From a virus: DNA of 34,659 nt. Position 1 is the first letter of the stretch; the number at the start of each line of letters is the position of its first letter. The notes under the pieces were generated by a model. The model was given only the letters and a program-made list of their open reading frames with translations, ran no database searches and was not told the origin of the DNA. Both the position numbers and the translations under genes were made by a program. The DNA lies in IMG/VR virus record IMGVR_UViG_3300022918_000227, positions 1-34,659 of that record; one strand, written 5' to 3'. Shown in pieces: positions 677 through 34,659 of this stretch.

Positions 677-1471
677 TCAGAATAATTGTCCCAGGGACGA
701 AGGCTCCCAACTTGTGATCACCAACTCGCCACTCGCTTCTGTTCCACTTCCTCGCGGGTTACCAACGCTGTAACGAATGTTCACCTCGTCGAAGTGAAAG
801 CCCTTGAACACCTCTCTAATGTCCGGGTGATCGTTGATGCTCACCATCACCTTGCCTTTACACCGGTGCATGAATTCCGCCATGCGCTCGTAATTTTCAA
901 ACGGGAAATCCACCCCATAGCCTGCAGTCTCCCAATATGGCGGATCCATATAGTGGAACGTGTGCGCACGGTCGTAGCGCTCGGCACATTCGAGCCAGGG
1001 CAGATTTTCGACATAAGTGCCTGACAGACGCTGCCATGCGGCTGAAAGGTTTTCTTCGATACGCAGCAAATTGATTGCAGGAGCCGTCGTAGCGGTACCG
1101 AAGCTCTGCCCGGTGACCTTTCCGGCGAAGGCATGATGCTGCAGGTAGAAGAACCGAGCAGCTCGCTGGATATCTGTGAGCGTTTCCGTTCGGGTCATCT
1201 TCTGCCACTCAAATATCTGGCGTGAGCTGAGCGCCCATTTGAACTGTCGCACGAACTCTTCGAGATGGTTTTGGACGACGCGATAGAGCGTAACCAGATC
1301 GCCATTAATGTCGTTCAGAACCTCCACGGGCGCGCCCTGCGGGCGAAGGAAATACAGGGCTGCCCCACCGGCAAAAACTTCGACGTAGCACTCATGGGGC
1401 GGAAACAACGGTATCAAGCGATCAGCCAAGCGGCGTTTGCCGCCCATCCATGGAATGATGGGAGAAGACAT
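677..1471 (-). CDS. dam: Dam-type DNA adenine-N6 methyltransferase (D12 class)
   Basis: A 264-residue D12-class methyltransferase that should transfer a methyl group from S-adenosylmethionine to the N6 of adenine in DNA, most likely within GATC as in the Dam family. Visible motifs in order: the N-terminal PWMGGKRRL (residues 7-15), the cofactor-binding FAGG (33-36), NDING (53-57), and the catalytic DPPYW (176-180). Length matches phage Dam enzymes. No restriction nuclease lies beside it, so it is an orphan methylase; phages use such enzymes to escape host restriction or to mark their own DNA. The ribosome site is weak (AAGG about nine bases before the ATG). A perfect LexA-type box lies 16-35 bases upstream of the start, so expression is probably induced by DNA damage. 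Family assignment is firm; target site and SOS control are inference. Confidence 0.92.
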   Translation of the reverse strand: MSSPIIPWMGGKRRLADRLIPLFPPHECYVEVFAGGAALYFLRPQGAPVEVLNDINGDLVTLYRVVQNHLEEFVRQFKWALSSRQIFEWQKMTRTETLTDIQRAARFFYLQHHAFAGKVTGQSFGTATTAPAINLLRIEENLSAAWQRLSGTYVENLPWLECAERYDRAHTFHYMDPPYWETAGYGVDFPFENYERMAEFMHRCKGKVMVSINDHPDIREVFKGFHFDEVNIRYSVGNPRGSGTEASGELVITSWEPSSLGQLF

Positions 1472-1486
1472 AAAAATAGGCCTTAA

Positions 1487-1506
1487 TACTGTATGAATAA
1501 ACAGTA
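1487..1506. promoter_or_regulatory. LexA (SOS) box upstream of the dam gene
   Basis: The sequence TACTGTATGAATAAACAGTA contains CTGT-N8-ACAG, the core recognised by gammaproteobacterial LexA, with the outer TA/TA flanks of the E. coli consensus also matched. It lies 16 bases upstream of the methylase ATG on the minus strand, where a bound repressor would block transcription. No convincing -35/-10 pair could be assigned. Confidence 0.8.
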
Positions 1507-1507
1507 C

Positions 1508-1533
1508 CCATCATACCTGTTTTTCTATGATGG
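1508..1533. repeat. inverted repeat upstream of dam
   Basis: CCATCATA (1508-1515) and TATGATGG (1526-1533) form a perfect 8-base inverted repeat around a 10-base spacer, immediately next to the LexA box. It contains a -10-like TATGAT on the minus strand. It could be a second operator at the dam promoter; no partner protein is evident. Confidence 0.4.
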
Positions 1534-1992
1534 CGATGCGCCTTTGTGCAATGTTTTAGAAACTTTAGAACCGCCTGTGAGCTCCGGCCACAAAGGCTTT
1601 GAGCCGACTAGGCACAGGCCAACCTTTGCTGCAATACAGGGGCAAATTTGATGCGGTCAGAATTTGAAAACCAAGCCAAAGCAAGGTTTTTCAATTTTTC
1701 ATCCAATGAAACCGGGGTACTGAGGGAATTACTTGAACTGGAAGCGTGTGATGGTCCAGTGCACCCTAATTGCAATTCGTCGCAATTTCTTGCACTCAGT
1801 GCAATTGCCAACCACCCCCTGAGGCCCGCAGCCGGCGTGGCCTGGAGCGTGTATTACACTACCCGCTACCTTTGCACTAAAAAGGGACACAAAGCCCGTC
1901 GGCGGGAGGGGGATAAGTGCTTTTCCAGGTGTTTTTTTGTTCCAGCATCGGATTTCTCCGCCATGCATCAGCCCGCCTTTTATCGGCGCACG
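1534..1992. other. intergenic stretch, no gene supported
   Basis: About 460 bases between the dam promoter and the promoter of the small-gene operon. A plus-strand open frame from 1648 runs into the following gene out of frame and lacks a good ribosome site; a minus-strand frame at 1608-1811 is no better. A short hairpin-like CCCG/CGGG sequence lies near 1890-1906. I see no RNA gene. Confidence 0.4.
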
Positions 1993-2036
1993 GTGACATT
2001 CACACTCGCGAGCCAATACACTGTCTATTCGTACAG
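1993..2036 (+). promoter_or_regulatory. promoter with overlapping LexA (SOS) box for the 2060-2816 operon
   Basis: GTGACA at 1993-1998 and TACACT at 2017-2022, 18 bases apart, make a plausible sigma-70 promoter. Overlapping the -10 and the expected start is ACACTGTCTATTCGTACAGT, with the LexA core CTGT-N8-ACAG at 2021-2036 inside a longer palindrome (ACACTGT/ACAGTGT). A bound LexA would exclude polymerase. The first gene starts 24 bases downstream, at 2060. Confidence 0.75.
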
Positions 2037-2059
2037 TGTTTCAGTGGAGGGTAACGGTT

Positions 2060-2947: not shown

Positions 2948-3910
2948 ATGCCTTTTATGGATGTTAGGATCGACTTCTCAAGAGACTATCTAGATTCGGT
3001 CTATCAAAGTCTCAAGGCGGCAGGTTGGAAAGGAGACCGTGAAGACAAAGACATCGATATTGTATTTACAAATTTCAAACGTCGTCATGTCACGGCAAAA
3101 AAAAGAGACGTTTACATAAGTAGACACTTAAATTGCCCCAGAGAATTCCGCGATGCTTACAGAGCTATTATTGATAAAATTGAATCCGGCGATACAGTAA
3201 AACCCCATTTGAGCCGATTCCTAAAAAAACCAGATTTCAATGACCTATTCTTAAATGATTGGGGCATACATCACCTACACCTTAGCTTAGTTGAGGAAGA
3301 CGATGGATACTGCGAGCGAACAGGCCCGGTACTCCTGGTGAGGTTCGAAGAAAATTACGCATTGATTATTGATATTCGAATGCACGGAAGCGCGAATCTG
3401 TGGGTGCAGAAGGACATTCTGGACAATATTCGTATCAACTGGCCGGACTGGATGGACCGTTTCAGGGTTCGTGGGGCGGGAAGGCAAGATGATCTTAGCG
3501 AGTCTGAGCGCAAGAGGCTCAGGAGTGTGCGGATGAATACATGGGTCAAATTGTCCGACGGCAATTTATACGTGGGGCCAGGCATGGGGCTCACTACAGC
3601 TGGCACCTCAACACTAGCGACCATGAATGCTGATAAGGCCATGCATGTAATCAGAGAGACAGAAAAACAAATCAAGAATGACCCGACCTATTACAAGCGG
3701 GTATTCTGGGGCGACCTCGCTGCATGGCCATTTAGATTGGAGGTTAAACTTAGCTGCATTGGTGATAACTACTATGCTGTTGTTAAGCATTCTGGAACAG
3801 CAATGTCCGTGTATGCCCAATGGCCTGCAGTAAGTTCGGATGCACAGGTGTGCCATAGGCGCATTATGAGTTTTTCAGCATCCTCTATAGCCTCCATTTC
3901 GCAGCTCTAG
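2948..3910 (+). CDS. protein of unknown function, accessory (moron-like) gene
   Basis: 320 residues, start fixed by GGAAGGA at 2934-2940. A TATAAA near 2879 could be its own -10 box. The first 170 residues carry a distinctive pattern: a conserved-looking NDWGIHHLHLS (about residue 98), then RTGPVLLVRF, then YALIIDIRMHG and a Trp-rich stretch (NINWPDW-like). I have seen this WGIHHLHL...LL-F...IDI-HG layout in uncharacterised bacterial and prophage proteins but know no function; the paired histidines suggest a metal or nuclease site, which is inference. The second half is less distinctive. Base composition is clearly more AT-rich than the virion genes (runs of A and codons such as AAA, ATA, TTA), pointing to recent acquisition. 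It is convergent with the late operon, as expected for a moron such as a phage-exclusion or toxin gene. Confidence 0.75.
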   Translation: MPFMDVRIDFSRDYLDSVYQSLKAAGWKGDREDKDIDIVFTNFKRRHVTAKKRDVYISRHLNCPREFRDAYRAIIDKIESGDTVKPHLSRFLKKPDFNDLFLNDWGIHHLHLSLVEEDDGYCERTGPVLLVRFEENYALIIDIRMHGSANLWVQKDILDNIRINWPDWMDRFRVRGAGRQDDLSESERKRLRSVRMNTWVKLSDGNLYVGPGMGLTTAGTSTLATMNADKAMHVIRETEKQIKNDPTYYKRVFWGDLAAWPFRLEVKLSCIGDNYYAVVKHSGTAMSVYAQWPAVSSDAQVCHRRIMSFSASSIASISQL

Positions 3911-3919
3911 ATTTAAGCC

Positions 3920-4894
3920 TCAGGCAGTCACGCTTCCCAGCTCAGCTGACAGCAAGGCAGCTTTAGCGGCATCCGCTGTAAATGCAGCAGCGTTGACCGG
4001 CGGCTGGCCCACCTGTGGGTGAACATGCGCCGCTATCTGCGTGTTCATCTCCTGCAGCAGGTCCAGCGTGTCACACAGCACACGAAAAATGTTCACGCCT
4101 GCAGATCCGACGTGGTTTTTCGGTGCGATCAGTTGCTGGCTCATCCCCGCCACGCTACGGCGCAGGCCCGCGATCTTCTCCTGCATGTCGCCACCCACCG
4201 CCGCGTTGTGGGTCTTACCCACAACCAGGTTGAGGTCGCGCCCCGTCGCCTGGTGCATATCGTCGACGGCAGCGAGCGTGGCGGTACCGGCTGAATTGAG
4301 CTTGAGCGCGCCCAGGGCGTTGATCCGCTTGATACCCCCCACTTCCTCGGTGGAATGGTTCTCCACCTCCTGGACGTGGCTCTGGTACTTCTCGCTATTG
4401 CCCAGGGCTTCCACTTCGCGCTCCAGCGAATGGTCGCGGATCTTGCCATCTGTGAGGCGCAGCCAATTGCCGTCCGCGTCGACGCGCTGCTGCACGGCGT
4501 CACTGTGTTGCCACACTTGGTCACCCTTCGGCACCTTGGGAAGGCTCAGGCCATGCGGCAGGATCGTCTGGATGTAGGGCTTGCTGGGCGAGCCATACGC
4601 GAAGCACACCACCACTTGAGTGCCTTCCTGGGGAAACGCAAACATGCCCATCTCTTCACCACCCGAGGGCAGCGGCAGCGGCACACCGGTGAGCCTTGGC
4701 ACGGCAGGATCTGCTTCACCGTCCTGGCCAAGTACTTCGATGTCGACCGCGTAGCGCGGGCGGAAGTCGTCGCACATGGATGCGTCAGCGGGAGCGTCAG
4801 CCACCCCTACCACGCGGGCAAAGCGCGGCAAGTGGTAGCCGCCGGTGAGTTCAGGATAAAGGCGTTCTACGCTGCGCTTGATTGCGTCGTCCAT
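3920..4894 (-). CDS. baseplate spike protein (gpV/VgrG-like)
   Basis: 324 residues. The N-terminal half has the look of the OB-fold/gp5 region of phage baseplate assembly protein V and VgrG: RYAVDIEVLG, LPLPSGGEEMGMFAFPQEGTQVVVCFAYGSPSKPYI at about residues 48-108. The middle (130-240) is a chain of short repeating stretches typical of the spike beta-helix, and the C-terminal part contains HVHP, a possible metal site as found at P2-like spike tips. It should form the trimeric membrane-piercing tip at the centre of the baseplate. It is the last gene of the late operon, overlaps the hub gene by 28 bases and runs convergent with the unknown gene at 2948-3910. No terminator was seen in the nine bases between them. 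Confidence 0.8.
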   Translation of the reverse strand: MDDAIKRSVERLYPELTGGYHLPRFARVVGVADAPADASMCDDFRPRYAVDIEVLGQDGEADPAVPRLTGVPLPLPSGGEEMGMFAFPQEGTQVVVCFAYGSPSKPYIQTILPHGLSLPKVPKGDQVWQHSDAVQQRVDADGNWLRLTDGKIRDHSLEREVEALGNSEKYQSHVQEVENHSTEEVGGIKRINALGALKLNSAGTATLAAVDDMHQATGRDLNLVVGKTHNAAVGGDMQEKIAGLRRSVAGMSQQLIAPKNHVGSAGVNIFRVLCDTLDLLQEMNTQIAAHVHPQVGQPPVNAAAFTADAAKAALLSAELGSVTA

Positions 4895-27073: not shown

Positions 27074-27697
27074 CTAGTTCACCTGGTGCAGGGTAGGTTT
27101 CTGATGCTGCTCAAGCAGCACGTCTTCGGCACGCGAGCGCAGTTCGCAGCAGCGCGCTTCCACCGACCGAAGCGTGTCGACGAAGTCAGGTAGCTTTGCG
27201 ACGTCCTGGAAGTCGATGTGACCGTCTGCAAGTATCTCGCTGCCCAGGACCACTGTGTCGCCTAACCTGGCGACAAGCAGACCGAACGCCCCTAGGGGGT
27301 TGCCGTCACCATCCTGCTCGCGAGCACCAGTCAACCCATGACGGCTGGCCAGTTCGTTGATGCAATCGTCTTTGAAGTCGCCATCAAGAGCGTCTACCCA
27401 TGCCTCTTCCAGCCAGCACGGCAGATCCACCTCACCGTTGAGCCAGCGGCCAACGCGCCGCAACCAGGCCCCTGATGCTCTGAGAAACGCCGGCGCGTCG
27501 TTGCCCTTGGCCAACTCGTCAAAATCGGGCACGTCCTTGCTCACAGCTTTGCCTGGGACGATCCGATGCAGATTGCTGCTCAGCAGCTGGGCAAAGTCGT
27601 CCTGGCTGAAACCCGTGCGCGCGATCATCTCAACGGCATGGGCCACCAGCACCTGGTCACGGGACGTGGACATCTGTCCTGAAGTGGACGTGTTCAT
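27074..27697 (-). CDS. early phage protein of unknown function
   Basis: 207 residues, starting at an ATGA overlap with the Cro-like gene. An N-terminal helical part (VLVAHAVEMIARTGFSQDDF) is followed by WLRRVGRWLNGEVDLPCWLE and EAWVDALDGDFKDDCINELA, a pattern seen in early proteins next to cro in Pseudomonas phages, then a region around GNPLGAFGLLVARLGDTVVL and a charged C-terminal helix with two cysteines. No known catalytic motif. Lying between cro and repA in one operon suggests a role in replication or early regulation (a CII-like or Rep helper protein); this is context only. Confidence 0.6.
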   Translation of the reverse strand: MNTSTSGQMSTSRDQVLVAHAVEMIARTGFSQDDFAQLLSSNLHRIVPGKAVSKDVPDFDELAKGNDAPAFLRASGAWLRRVGRWLNGEVDLPCWLEEAWVDALDGDFKDDCINELASRHGLTGAREQDGDGNPLGAFGLLVARLGDTVVLGSEILADGHIDFQDVAKLPDFVDTLRSVEARCCELRSRAEDVLLEQHQKPTLHQVN

Positions 27698-27924
27698 GCA
27701 GCACTACTGCTTTTAGGCTGCACTGGCTCTAGGTCATCTTGAGCATTTGAAGGGAATGGACGTACCTCTTGAGCAACACAGGAGCCATCAGTTTCTACTG
27801 ACACTTCAATGTTGCGGCGCGTTTTAAGAGCTTTAGCGATAGATGCGGGTTTGCAGCCTAAAGCCCGAGCAACGCGGGCTTGCCCGACCTTCCTGACAAA
27901 GTCACTCAGCGATATTTTTTCCAT
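27694..27924 (-). CDS. Cro-like small DNA-binding regulator
   Basis: 76 residues from the ATG at 27924 (a GTG at 27933 is less likely; AGG lies about nine bases before the ATG). The first 40 residues form a compact helix-turn-helix: LSDFVRKVGQARVARALGCK and PASIAKALKTRRNI, as in Cro proteins; the rest is a disordered acidic, Pro/Ser-rich tail. It faces the repressor gene across a 148-base operator region, the classic Cro position, and should favour the lytic state by blocking repressor synthesis. Its promoter overlaps operator O1. Confidence 0.8.
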   Translation of the reverse strand: MEKISLSDFVRKVGQARVARALGCKPASIAKALKTRRNIEVSVETDGSCVAQEVRPFPSNAQDDLEPVQPKSSSAA

Positions 27925-27955
27925 GGCGTACACCTAAGGGGCATTGAACGGCCAG

Positions 27956-27984
27956 ATATTAGCCCCCGGCATACTCTAAATCAA
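27956..27984 (-). promoter_or_regulatory. early lytic promoter of cro-repA
   Basis: On the minus strand TTGATT (27984-27979), a 17-base spacer and TAATAT (27961-27956). Good sigma-70 match with ideal spacing, 32 bases before the Cro start. Operator O1 overlaps its -10 and spacer. Confidence 0.7.
27959..27973. promoter_or_regulatory. repressor operator O1
   Basis: TTAGCCCCCGGCATA, imperfect palindrome with TTAGCC/GGCWTA arms. It overlaps the -10 box of the cro-repA promoter, starting three bases inside it. Same 15-base pattern as O2 and O3. Confidence 0.65.
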
Positions 27985-28047
27985 CATTTATATACCGTAG
28001 GCATCGATTATTTCATTCGATAGAACCCTTGGGTAAACCCTTATTTA

Positions 28048-28062
28048 TTAGCCTGCGGCTTA
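28048..28062. promoter_or_regulatory. repressor operator O2
   Basis: TTAGCCTGCGGCTTA, the core of a longer near-perfect palindrome at 28045-28065 with arms TTATTAGCC and GGCTTATAA. It overlaps the -10 box of the repressor's own promoter, so the repressor should limit its own synthesis. Confidence 0.7.
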
Positions 28063-28072: not shown

Positions 28073-28795
28073 ATGACCTATACGAAAAAACCACTTCCTG
28101 CTGACCTCATGGCTGAATGCCAAGCCGCTCACGCGCTATTCCTTGCGAAAAAGAACGGTCTCAAACTTAACCAGAGGAAAATCGCAGATGCCGCTGGTAT
28201 CACCCCTGCCTCGGTGAACCATTATCTGAAAGGTATCAACGCCTTGAACGCCAGGTTCGCATCGGTGCTCGCGAGGTTGATTGAAGAACCAGTCGAAAGC
28301 TTCAGTCCGCGCTTGGCGGCGGAAATAGCAGAGCTAGCAGGCACCACGGGCCATTCAAATGTGGGCCCCATGCTGCAGCCGTATCGCGAAGCCAAGGAGT
28401 ACCCGCTAATAACGTGGGTCGACGCTGGCCAAGGTATCGAGTCATCAGCCAGTTACCCGTCGGGCATCTCTGACGAATGGCTGAGCTCTACAGAAAACGC
28501 CGGTCCAAAGGGCTACTGGTTGAGGGTCAAGGGCAAGTCCATGACCTCTGACACCCATCCTACTTTTCCAGAAGGGACCCCGATACTGATTCGCCCAGAA
28601 GGCTTCGATATCATCAGCGGGAAATTCTATGTTGCCCGCAACACGGTCAGTGGTGAGACGACATTCAAGCAGTACGCGATGGACGCAGGTGTTGGTTACC
28701 TGGTGCCCCTAAATCCCAGCTATCAGCCTGTTTTATTGGACAACAATTGGGAAATTATCGGTCGCGCGATCGACGCCAAAATCACTGGTATGTAG
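28073..28795 (+). CDS. CI-type self-cleaving prophage repressor (S24 peptidase)
   Basis: 240 residues. N-terminal helix-turn-helix at about 32-56 (LNQRKIADAAGITPASVNHY). C-terminal S24/LexA-type domain: cleavage site Ala118-Gly119 in WVDAGQG, catalytic Ser-156 in GKSMT and Lys-199 in TTFKQ, spaced 43 residues apart as in lambda CI. It should keep the prophage silent by binding the TTAGCC operators and cut itself when RecA is activated by DNA damage. It lies divergent to cro-repA and convergent with the second early operon. The message is probably leaderless, as for lambda cI from its maintenance promoter. All catalytic residues are present, so direct SOS induction is expected. Confidence 0.93.
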   Translation: MTYTKKPLPADLMAECQAAHALFLAKKNGLKLNQRKIADAAGITPASVNHYLKGINALNARFASVLARLIEEPVESFSPRLAAEIAELAGTTGHSNVGPMLQPYREAKEYPLITWVDAGQGIESSASYPSGISDEWLSSTENAGPKGYWLRVKGKSMTSDTHPTFPEGTPILIRPEGFDIISGKFYVARNTVSGETTFKQYAMDAGVGYLVPLNPSYQPVLLDNNWEIIGRAIDAKITGM

Positions 28796-32705: not shown

Positions 32706-32975
32706 CTAGATATATGCCTGAGATAAATGTTGATTCGTCCACGTCAGCCCTACAGATCCACACTCCAAGCGAGTCACCCGCACGCTGTCCTCAACGTCCA
32801 GCTGGTCAAGCAAGCAATCCCAGTCTTCAAGCTTTTCATTAGATAACCTGGAGATAATCGTCCGCCTTCGCGTCTGCGCCGCCGAGCTGTTCACCTGACG
32901 GTGAATGCGGCGTGCAAGCTGCTCAAATGGCGTATGCAATTGCTCAAGACCACCGGAATAGACGCTGTGAGACAT
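32706..32975 (-). CDS. DUF1654-like small protein
   Basis: 89 residues from MSHSVYSGGLEQLHTPFEQL; AAGGAG lies about ten bases before the ATG at 32975, and the longer frame from 33005 is rejected because it would start inside the LexA-like box. The pattern ARRIHRQVNSSAAQTRRRTI, then RLSNEKLEDWDCLLDQL and GSVGLTW, matches DUF1654, a family I know from Pseudomonas genomes and phages, without known function. It stands alone between the integrase and the second early promoter, with its own LexA-like site, so it may be made after DNA damage even while the repressor is bound. An antirepressor-like role is possible but unproved. Confidence 0.7.
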   Translation of the reverse strand: MSHSVYSGGLEQLHTPFEQLARRIHRQVNSSAAQTRRRTIISRLSNEKLEDWDCLLDQLDVEDSVRVTRLECGSVGLTWTNQHLSQAYI

Positions 32976-32991
32976 AAACACTCCTTGCTTA

Positions 32992-33011
32992 TACTGTACG
33001 TACAACCAGTA
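32992..33011. promoter_or_regulatory. degenerate LexA-type box upstream of the DUF1654 gene
   Basis: TACTGTACGTACAACCAGTA: CTGT-N8-CCAG at 32994-33009 differs from the LexA core by one base, while the outer TACTG/CAGTA flanks are perfect. It lies 17 bases before the start codon on the minus strand, close to where the promoter should be. Confidence 0.5.
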
Positions 33012-33039: not shown

Positions 33040-34659
33040 TCAGTCCCAGTCTTCGCTGGCCACCCATTCCCCCGATCGCCGGTTGATCTGCAGTAGCCTG
33101 TGTTGACCCGTGCGGGAGATCAGCTGCACATCTATAAACTTGCTCTTACGATCCTCGTCGCCCATCCCTCGCATATAAACGACGATCCGCTGGAATGTGT
33201 CCATGACTAACTGGCGCACCTTTTCTCTCGCACTGTAGTCGCCCGCATTGACTAGGGCAGCCAGCTCAACCCATTGTTCCTGCTGAGCTGGCTTACCTGA
33301 TCCCGAAGCCGCCGCCAGTTCATATTCAATGTTCGCGACGTTTTTTTCTGCCTCAAGCTGCTGCGCCTCAAGCTCACGAGCTTTGCGCACGAATGAGATC
33401 GGCGCGGGACCGTCCTCGTCGGCCATCAGCGCGGCTGTGACTCTTTCAAGCTGCTCCGAGATTTTCTGCACCGCCGCGCGGGCCCCCACTAGTTGATGGC
33501 GAAGGCCCTGCCCGTCGTCACCAACCTGCATCAGTCGCTGCAGGTTGAGTCGGTCAGAACAAAAGTTGAGCAGTGCCTTCTCGATCGGGACCACACTGCA
33601 CGATCCACCGGAACCACAACCCTCATTACGCCCATACGACACGCAATGTAGACGGCGATGGCCATCAGCGAGTGTGCCGTCAGCCCGGGCGCGGGTCATG
33701 TAGTTCTGCCCAATGATCGCGGTACCGCAATAGCCGCAATACGTCAGACCGATGCCAGTGATAATCCCTGGAATTTCACCTTTCATTCGCCGCCGTAATC
33801 GTTGGCCGCCCATGTGCTGGAGTTCGGCCCATTCTGTTTCCGACAACAGGCGCGGGTAGTAGTCCTCCAGAACAAACTCCTCACCATTGATGGTCAGGCT
33901 CTTAGCTCCTCGCAGGGCCTGGAGCTTGATCAGCCGGTATATCTGCAGTGTGGTAATTCCGACGTTGCTGTAGCTAAGCCCCTCGTCGTGCAGGATACGA
34001 ACCGCCCGGGCAGCCCCCATCCCCTCTAAATACAGCTGCAGGGCTCGACGTACAGTCGCAACCCGCTCAGGAATCAGTTCCCATTCGGTACCAGTCCATT
34101 TGAGCCACTGAGGATCTTTGCCGTTGCGGATCTGCCCACGATAGGTGCCAGCCTGCCAGGCTTCGCACAGCCGCCGGATCGAGGCCTTAACTCGCTTGCT
34201 CTTCGTGTCCGACTCTTCGTGAGCCCGGATCATGACCAGGAGCGAATACACAAGGTCCATCGGCTGGGCTTTCAAGCCGGCGCGGTTGTATTCACGGCCA
34301 TCACTGGCGGTTACAACGGTAATGCCGGCATTGATAATCTGCGCCAGCTGGGCTTGGGCCTGGATCGGTTCGGCACGACTCAACCGGTCCAACCCTTCTA
34401 CGACCAGGACAGAACCGGAAGCGATACGGCCTTCCTCGATCGCAACCAAGAAAACCCCGAGCGCTCCCTGGGTGATGTGACGTTGGTGATATGCCGATAG
34501 ACCTTCATCACGCATGGAGAGCGATTCGTCGAGCATCAAGCCTTTTTCAGCGGCCCACTTCTGGGCGTACTGCAACTGACGATCGGCACTACTGCCCGTG
34601 GACTGCCGAGGGTCTGAGAACCGCAAATAGCTGTATACTCGCGCACCGTTTTTAGCCAT
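33040..34659 (-). CDS. int: large serine recombinase (prophage integrase)
   Basis: 539 residues, complete: the ATG is the last codon of the window. Catalytic domain at 1-155: YLRFSDPRQSTGSSADRQ with Arg-13 and the nucleophile Ser-15, DEGLSAYHQ, and VVEGLDRLSR with Arg-92/Arg-95. A recombinase domain follows (about 185-275, ALQLYLEGMGAARAVRILHD), then a zinc ribbon with Cys-308, 311, 339 and 348, and a coiled-coil region (about 395-460, RKARELEAQQLEAEKNVANI). This is the layout of large serine integrases, which join attP and attB through a two-base crossover without needing host IHF, and need a separate directionality factor to excise. No such factor is recognised here; one of the small early proteins is a candidate. 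P2 and HP1 use tyrosine integrases, so this is a module exchange. Confidence 0.93.
   Translation of the reverse strand: MAKNGARVYSYLRFSDPRQSTGSSADRQLQYAQKWAAEKGLMLDESLSMRDEGLSAYHQRHITQGALGVFLVAIEEGRIASGSVLVVEGLDRLSRAEPIQAQAQLAQIINAGITVVTASDGREYNRAGLKAQPMDLVYSLLVMIRAHEESDTKSKRVKASIRRLCEAWQAGTYRGQIRNGKDPQWLKWTGTEWELIPERVATVRRALQLYLEGMGAARAVRILHDEGLSYSNVGITTLQIYRLIKLQALRGAKSLTINGEEFVLEDYYPRLLSETEWAELQHMGGQRLRRRMKGEIPGIITGIGLTYCGYCGTAIIGQNYMTRARADGTLADGHRRLHCVSYGRNEGCGSGGSCSVVPIEKALLNFCSDRLNLQRLMQVGDDGQGLRHQLVGARAAVQKISEQLERVTAALMADEDGPAPISFVRKARELEAQQLEAEKNVANIEYELAAASGSGKPAQQEQWVELAALVNAGDYSAREKVRQLVMDTFQRIVVYMRGMGDEDRKSKFIDVQLISRTGQHRLLQINRRSGEWVASEDWD

Follow-up and report, generated by a model that had tools for sequence, protein, structure and literature searches.

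Does the LexA repressor of the host directly control accessory genes of this prophage, separately from the repressor that the phage itself encodes? The question is raised by two LexA-type boxes on IMG/VR record IMGVR_UViG_3300022918_000227, one before a dam gene and the other at the promoter of three small genes on the opposite strand. The whole record of 34,659 bases was analysed and is referred to here as the window. Its gene families describe a contractile-tailed temperate phage, with matches to the tail sheath, baseplate, major head, scaffold/protease, terminase and portal families of PHROG and a serine recombinase at the right end. The loci closest to the one in the window are found in Pseudomonas, suggesting that the phage host is Pseudomonas as well.

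Two promoter boxes and the host LexA matrix

Candidate sites were scored with a LexA matrix whose only input was the set of boxes preceding recA and lexA in about 31 Pseudomonas genomes and which is therefore independent of the phage boxes. On this matrix, the host recA and lexA sites score 19.1-27.2 bits and a value of 25.3 bits is obtained for the LexA site annotated in coliphage 186, and the top score in a control of 60 shuffled windows was 17.9 bits. Box 1 (21.7 bits) and box 2 (19.4 bits) thus lie inside the range of the host operators and above the best shuffled score, and all other sites in the window reach at most 12.2 bits. The two boxes given in a preliminary description of this DNA are confirmed from the sequence at the positions stated there (Table 1). 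The pattern CTGT-N8-ACAG occurs three times in the whole window against 0.46 expected; the third exact copy, at 33834, lies inside the recombinase gene, receives no score from the host matrix, and was set aside as a chance match.

Box 1 is located 15 bp before the start of dam (ATG at 1471-1469 on the minus strand) and, read on that strand, 3 bp downstream of a TATGAT hexamer that two diverged relatives share. With this placement, box 1 would cover the transcription start of dam. The encoded protein has a DPPY motif beside its Pfam D12 domain and scores 99 with TIGR00571, below the cut-off of 115 for that family. The window contains 248 GATC sites, compared to 135 for equal base frequencies; they are not depleted, and there is thus no sign that the presumed Dam site is avoided.

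Box 2 overlaps the -10-like TACACT of the operon promoter, and the overlap claimed in the preliminary description is borne out. Genes 1-3 are tightly packed on the plus strand, and the best start of gene 1 is the ATG at 2060 with GGAGGG at 2046-2051. Upstream of the box lies a strongly conserved element, GTCGGCGGGAGGGGGATAAGTG, which is followed by T-runs and recurs in more than 120 viral stretches; an Rfam search of the window gave no match. The element resembles the cohesive end of P2, but the P2 cos site adjoins the portal gene whereas the element lies at the opposite end of the late gene block, and its reading as a cos site was rejected.

Table 1. Features of the dam/operon locus, the cI-cro region and the DUF1654 unit in the window (positions in bp).
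Feature	Position	Strand	Evidence and remarks
D12-class adenine DNA methyltransferase (Dam family)	677-1471	-	Pfam PF02086 1.1e-22; PHROG 56 7.6e-97
LexA-type box 1, TACTGTATGAATAAACAGTA	1487-1506		dam promoter; 21.7 bits on host LexA matrix
-10-like TATGAT of the putative dam promoter	1510-1515	-	sequence; GTATGAT directly upstream of the box also in relatives L041 and L300
Strongly conserved element, AAGCCCGTCGGCGGGAGGGGGATAAGTGC	1892-1920	+	in relatives, located about 96-133 bp before the LexA box
Sigma70-like promoter GTGACA-18-TACACT	1993-2022	+	-35 at 1993-1998, 18-bp spacer, -10 at 2017-2022
LexA-type box 2, CACTGTCTATTCGTACAGTG	2019-2038		operon promoter; CTGT-N8-ACAG at 2021-2036; 19.4 bits
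Gene 1, 80 aa	2060-2302	+	three-helix; PHROG 6137; operon member tied to LexA box
Gene 2, 92 aa	2305-2583	+	restricted to few close relatives
Gene 3, 78 aa	2580-2816	+	three-helix; RAEGFVLGLE motif; PHROG 36962; wider family, mostly without LexA box
PD-T4-7-like antiphage defence gene (predicted function)	2948-3910	+	PADLOC 2.9e-42; variable cargo slot, 3' of operon
Baseplate protein, last gene of tail operon	3920-4894	-	PHROG 4011 1e-136; convergent with putative SOS operon
Cro	27694-27933	-	Pfam Cro 1.5e-31
cI-cro intergenic region, putative CI/Cro operators	27957-28062		two TAGCC-NN-CGGC-N-TA repeats, unlike LexA boxes
CI repressor, HTH and S24 peptidase	28073-28795	+	Ala-Gly, GKSM and TFKQ motifs in sequence
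DUF1654 protein	32706-32975	-	Pfam PF07867 1.6e-16
Third LexA-type box, TACTGGTTGTACGTACAGTA (minus strand), CTGT-N8-CCAG	32992-33011		12.2 bits; 30/30 DUF1654 genes with box; box at PP_3901

Conservation of the boxes with dam and gene 1

Among 80 viral dam homologues with 87-89% identity, 69 have the box, located about 15 bp ahead of the start, and in about ten the upstream region is of another type that lacks a box. Homologues in host genomes are preceded by a box in 24 of 30 cases. As these genes are closely related, the raw count of 69/80 overstates the independent evidence and the better figure comes from eight dissimilar dam promoters, in which the core of the box is 100% conserved. Since about 14-20% of the homologues are without a box, SOS control of dam would be common but not universal. 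In another Pseudomonas genome (locus L300), a dam gene with 90% identity is divergent from gene 1 and both boxes are present.

All 20 viral gene-1 loci with available upstream DNA have TACTG[T/G]-N8-ACAG or differ from it by one base among the first positions, and a box is located upstream of 26 of the 30 homologues in host genomes. In order not to select loci by gene 1, 74 prophage loci were picked via an unrelated conserved 22-mer upstream. The box is present in 25 of the 28 loci with gene 1 and in 1 of the 46 without it (Fisher p = 2e-15), compared to a background rate of 0.008 sites per 350 bp. For a set of 32 gene-1 promoters that differ from one another, identity is 98% at the CTGT/ACAG positions and 28-34% in the flanks; over both footprints, the values are 98-100% for the core and 28-42% for the flanks. 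At one further locus (L321), the spacing between the conserved element and a LexA-type box is the usual one, but the box is followed by a small ORF resembling a membrane protein instead of gene 1.

Gene 1 has matches in 76 of 399 genomes but none in the isolated-phage records searched, and apart from its PHROG of unknown function it has no Pfam match and belongs to no named family. Structure models of genes 1 and 3 are confident three-helix folds (pLDDT 92.8 and 96.3, respectively), for which a structure search returned no significant match. Homology of gene 1 to gene 3 or to PP_3901, a Pseudomonas putida prophage protein discussed below, was rejected on comparison. The gene 3 family is preceded by a LexA box at 9 of 79 loci.

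The fit to the host matrix, the overlap with promoters and the conservation upstream support the view, put forward in the preliminary description, that dam and the small-protein operon are under LexA-type control. From these features we infer that LexA binds the boxes and that the genes behind them are SOS-induced, and we assign a probability of roughly 0.85 to direct control of both.

Phage repressor, DUF1654 gene and rival explanations

The CI repressor in the window retains an S24 peptidase domain and the Ala-Gly site; hence, it should be cleaved directly, probably with the help of RecA. The TAGCC-NN-CGGC-N-TA repeats that may serve CI and Cro occur in the window only as the two copies between cI and cro. 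A homologue of this CI was detected in none of 18 phage records with gene 1, some of which may be fragments, and it is present in one phage record that has no gene 1. The occurrence of gene 1 is thus not tied to that of this repressor, which speaks against a role as dedicated antirepressor. The preliminary description had also held that control of the two units is separate from the phage repressor, and the confinement of the CI-type repeats and the occurrence of the boxes in phages without a detected CI homologue support this view.

A third LexA-type box, which the preliminary description had missed, lies upstream of a gene for a DUF1654 protein. It is a CCAG variant and its own score of 12.2 bits is not significant. 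It is nevertheless credited because the DUF1654 genes sampled in Pseudomonas have a LexA-type box in 30 of 30 cases. One member of the family has a reported role: PP_3901 of P. putida is described as regulated by LexA1/LexA2 and as required for the induction of prophage genes upon DNA damage, according to the account in PMC4595014, which cites Abella 2007. An exact search of the sampled Pseudomonas genomes for a PP_3901 primer gave no match, and the gene was located through a viral contig carrying all four published primers. PP_3901 is a DUF1654 protein (1.7e-32), and its box, TACTGTCTATGCATACAGTA, scores 22.2 bits. It shares with the window gene the domain, the LexA box and the setting in a Pseudomonas prophage (that of P. 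putida KT2440). The two proteins are 34% identical over 67 aa, and the induction role is reported in that account for PP_3901 only. The odds that the window DUF1654 protein acts as an inducer are about even, and among the genes of this phage it is the likeliest candidate for a LexA-controlled inducer. These results assign PP_3901 to DUF1654 and suggest SOS regulation as a general trait of DUF1654 genes.

Could the boxes be something other than LexA sites? The exact copy at 33834 is evidently a chance match and might recommend chance in intergenic DNA for the others too. However, the 590-bp interval between dam and the operon holds two copies of the pattern against 0.017 expected, the association with gene 1 is highly significant, and the conservation of the core over diverged flanks already excludes chance; the probability left to this explanation is negligible. 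The boxes could instead be operators of a phage-encoded repressor that merely look like LexA sites. Phage CI and LexA have the S24 fold in common, and dyads of comparable length occur among phage operators. A different repeat occupies the cI-cro region and is found nowhere else in the window, though, and the boxes fit a matrix of host recA and lexA sites, recur in phages in which the window CI was not found and resemble those at DUF1654 genes across Pseudomonas genomes, which makes phage operators very improbable.

A rival of a different kind concerns what the operon does. Its small proteins might function in the manner of Tum (186) or GftA (Gifsy), LexA-controlled small proteins that set off lysis by binding the repressor of the phage. 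The anatomy is shared, with a LexA box over the -10, small proteins and a nearly universal link of gene 1 to LexA, and the LexA-controlled operon of Gifsy likewise consists of three small genes (PMC3121763). On the other hand, the window CI has its S24 domain with the motifs in place, its homologue occurs in a phage lacking gene 1 and in none of the gene-1 records, gene 1 shows no similarity to DinI/Tum (no Pfam match) and has an all-helical model, and a gene from the family of a known LexA-controlled inducer lies elsewhere in the phage. Antirepression by the three small genes, which the preliminary description had considered, is not supported by these features or by the low frequency of boxes before gene 3, and we regard it as unlikely.

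Variable cargo, a predicted SOS regulon and known systems

Gene 1 and the last baseplate gene converge in most relatives, where a gene for a 98-aa partner replaces genes 2-3 and variable cargo follows. This cargo includes PDC-S20/KAP NTPase, Apea-like HEPN, PD-T7-4/DUF4145 and HNH-like proteins, and defence hotspots are known from P2-like prophages (PMC9519451). The similarity between gene 3 and the 98-aa partner is not significant. In Pseudomonas phage Medea1 (L485 1043-1373), the partner gene is found outside the usual place of gene 1 and has its own strong LexA-type box (21.0 bits), and in phage pAN (L484) the 98-aa gene follows a gene for an SOS response-associated peptidase and has no box.

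The operon of the window might read through into the PD-T4-7-like gene, so that DNA damage would also raise antiphage defence. Both are on the same strand with a gap of 131 bp, in which no terminator-like or sigma70-like site was found on the plus strand by a scan covering one promoter type. The SOS operon of 186 ends with orf97, whose annotation states that its expression from a plasmid blocks infection by 186. At the loci read, the cargo has the orientation of the operon in about two thirds of cases and lies on the opposite strand in about one third (L290, L294, L300, L301, L015); SOS control of the cargo is thus possible but not required, and we consider read-through a tentative addition that is somewhat doubtful. 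More speculative is the proposal that gene 1 defines a widespread class of Pseudomonas prophage proteins dedicated to the SOS response, encoded by a LexA-controlled leader before a variable, often antiphage slot, and that DNA damage would coordinate induction, adenine methylation and antiphage defence in a single prophage SOS regulon.

The reading we favour, direct LexA control, describes a prophage with two repression circuits, in which the lytic genes would be under its own cleavable CI and the accessory units under host LexA. At least three units, namely dam, the gene1-gene2-gene3 operon and the DUF1654 gene, would be held directly by the E. coli-type LexA1 of the host at boxes in their promoters. 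Upon DNA damage, active RecA would lead to the cleavage of both LexA and CI, and the accessory units would be switched on together with CI cleavage and not through it. They would fire in every damaged lysogen at the LexA threshold, even if CI cleavage is incomplete. As for the most likely roles, the DUF1654 protein may, like PP_3901, help to start prophage gene expression, Dam may methylate adenines of replicating phage DNA, and the small helical protein of gene 1 may target the damaged host or influence the decision to induce. That Dam acts on the phage DNA is a roughly balanced proposition, and the methylase may also protect DNA. The prediction follows that DNA damage switches on adenine methylation in such Pseudomonas lysogens; the literature searched held no paper describing SOS control of a prophage dam. 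For the common, uncharacterised family of gene 1, the model offers functions that can be tested.

Single prophage genes under LexA are already known from tum of 186, from Gifsy and from PP_3901. Here, one prophage would contain three separately controlled units, and the families of gene 1 and of the prophage dam have boxes across many phages. One close parallel is the SOS operon of coliphage 186 (p95-tum-orf97), likewise from a temperate phage with P2-type head genes and with a LexA site that overlaps the -10. In the window phage, however, no Tum/DinI homologue was detected, the operon adjoins the last baseplate gene whereas that of 186 lies between A and the right genome end, dam and the DUF1654 gene appear to be further, separate LexA-controlled units, and CI looks cleavable. 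The dinI-gftA-irsA operons of Gifsy are likewise prophage operons in which one LexA box precedes three small genes (PMC3121763), but the Gifsy repressors are not cleaved and require an antirepressor, and a sequence relationship to gene 1 was not detected. Direct use of host LexA at phage promoters is also described for CTXphi (PMC5963079) and GIL01 (PMC4551915). There, LexA controls core phage genes, whereas in the phage described here it would control accessory genes and leave the core to CI.
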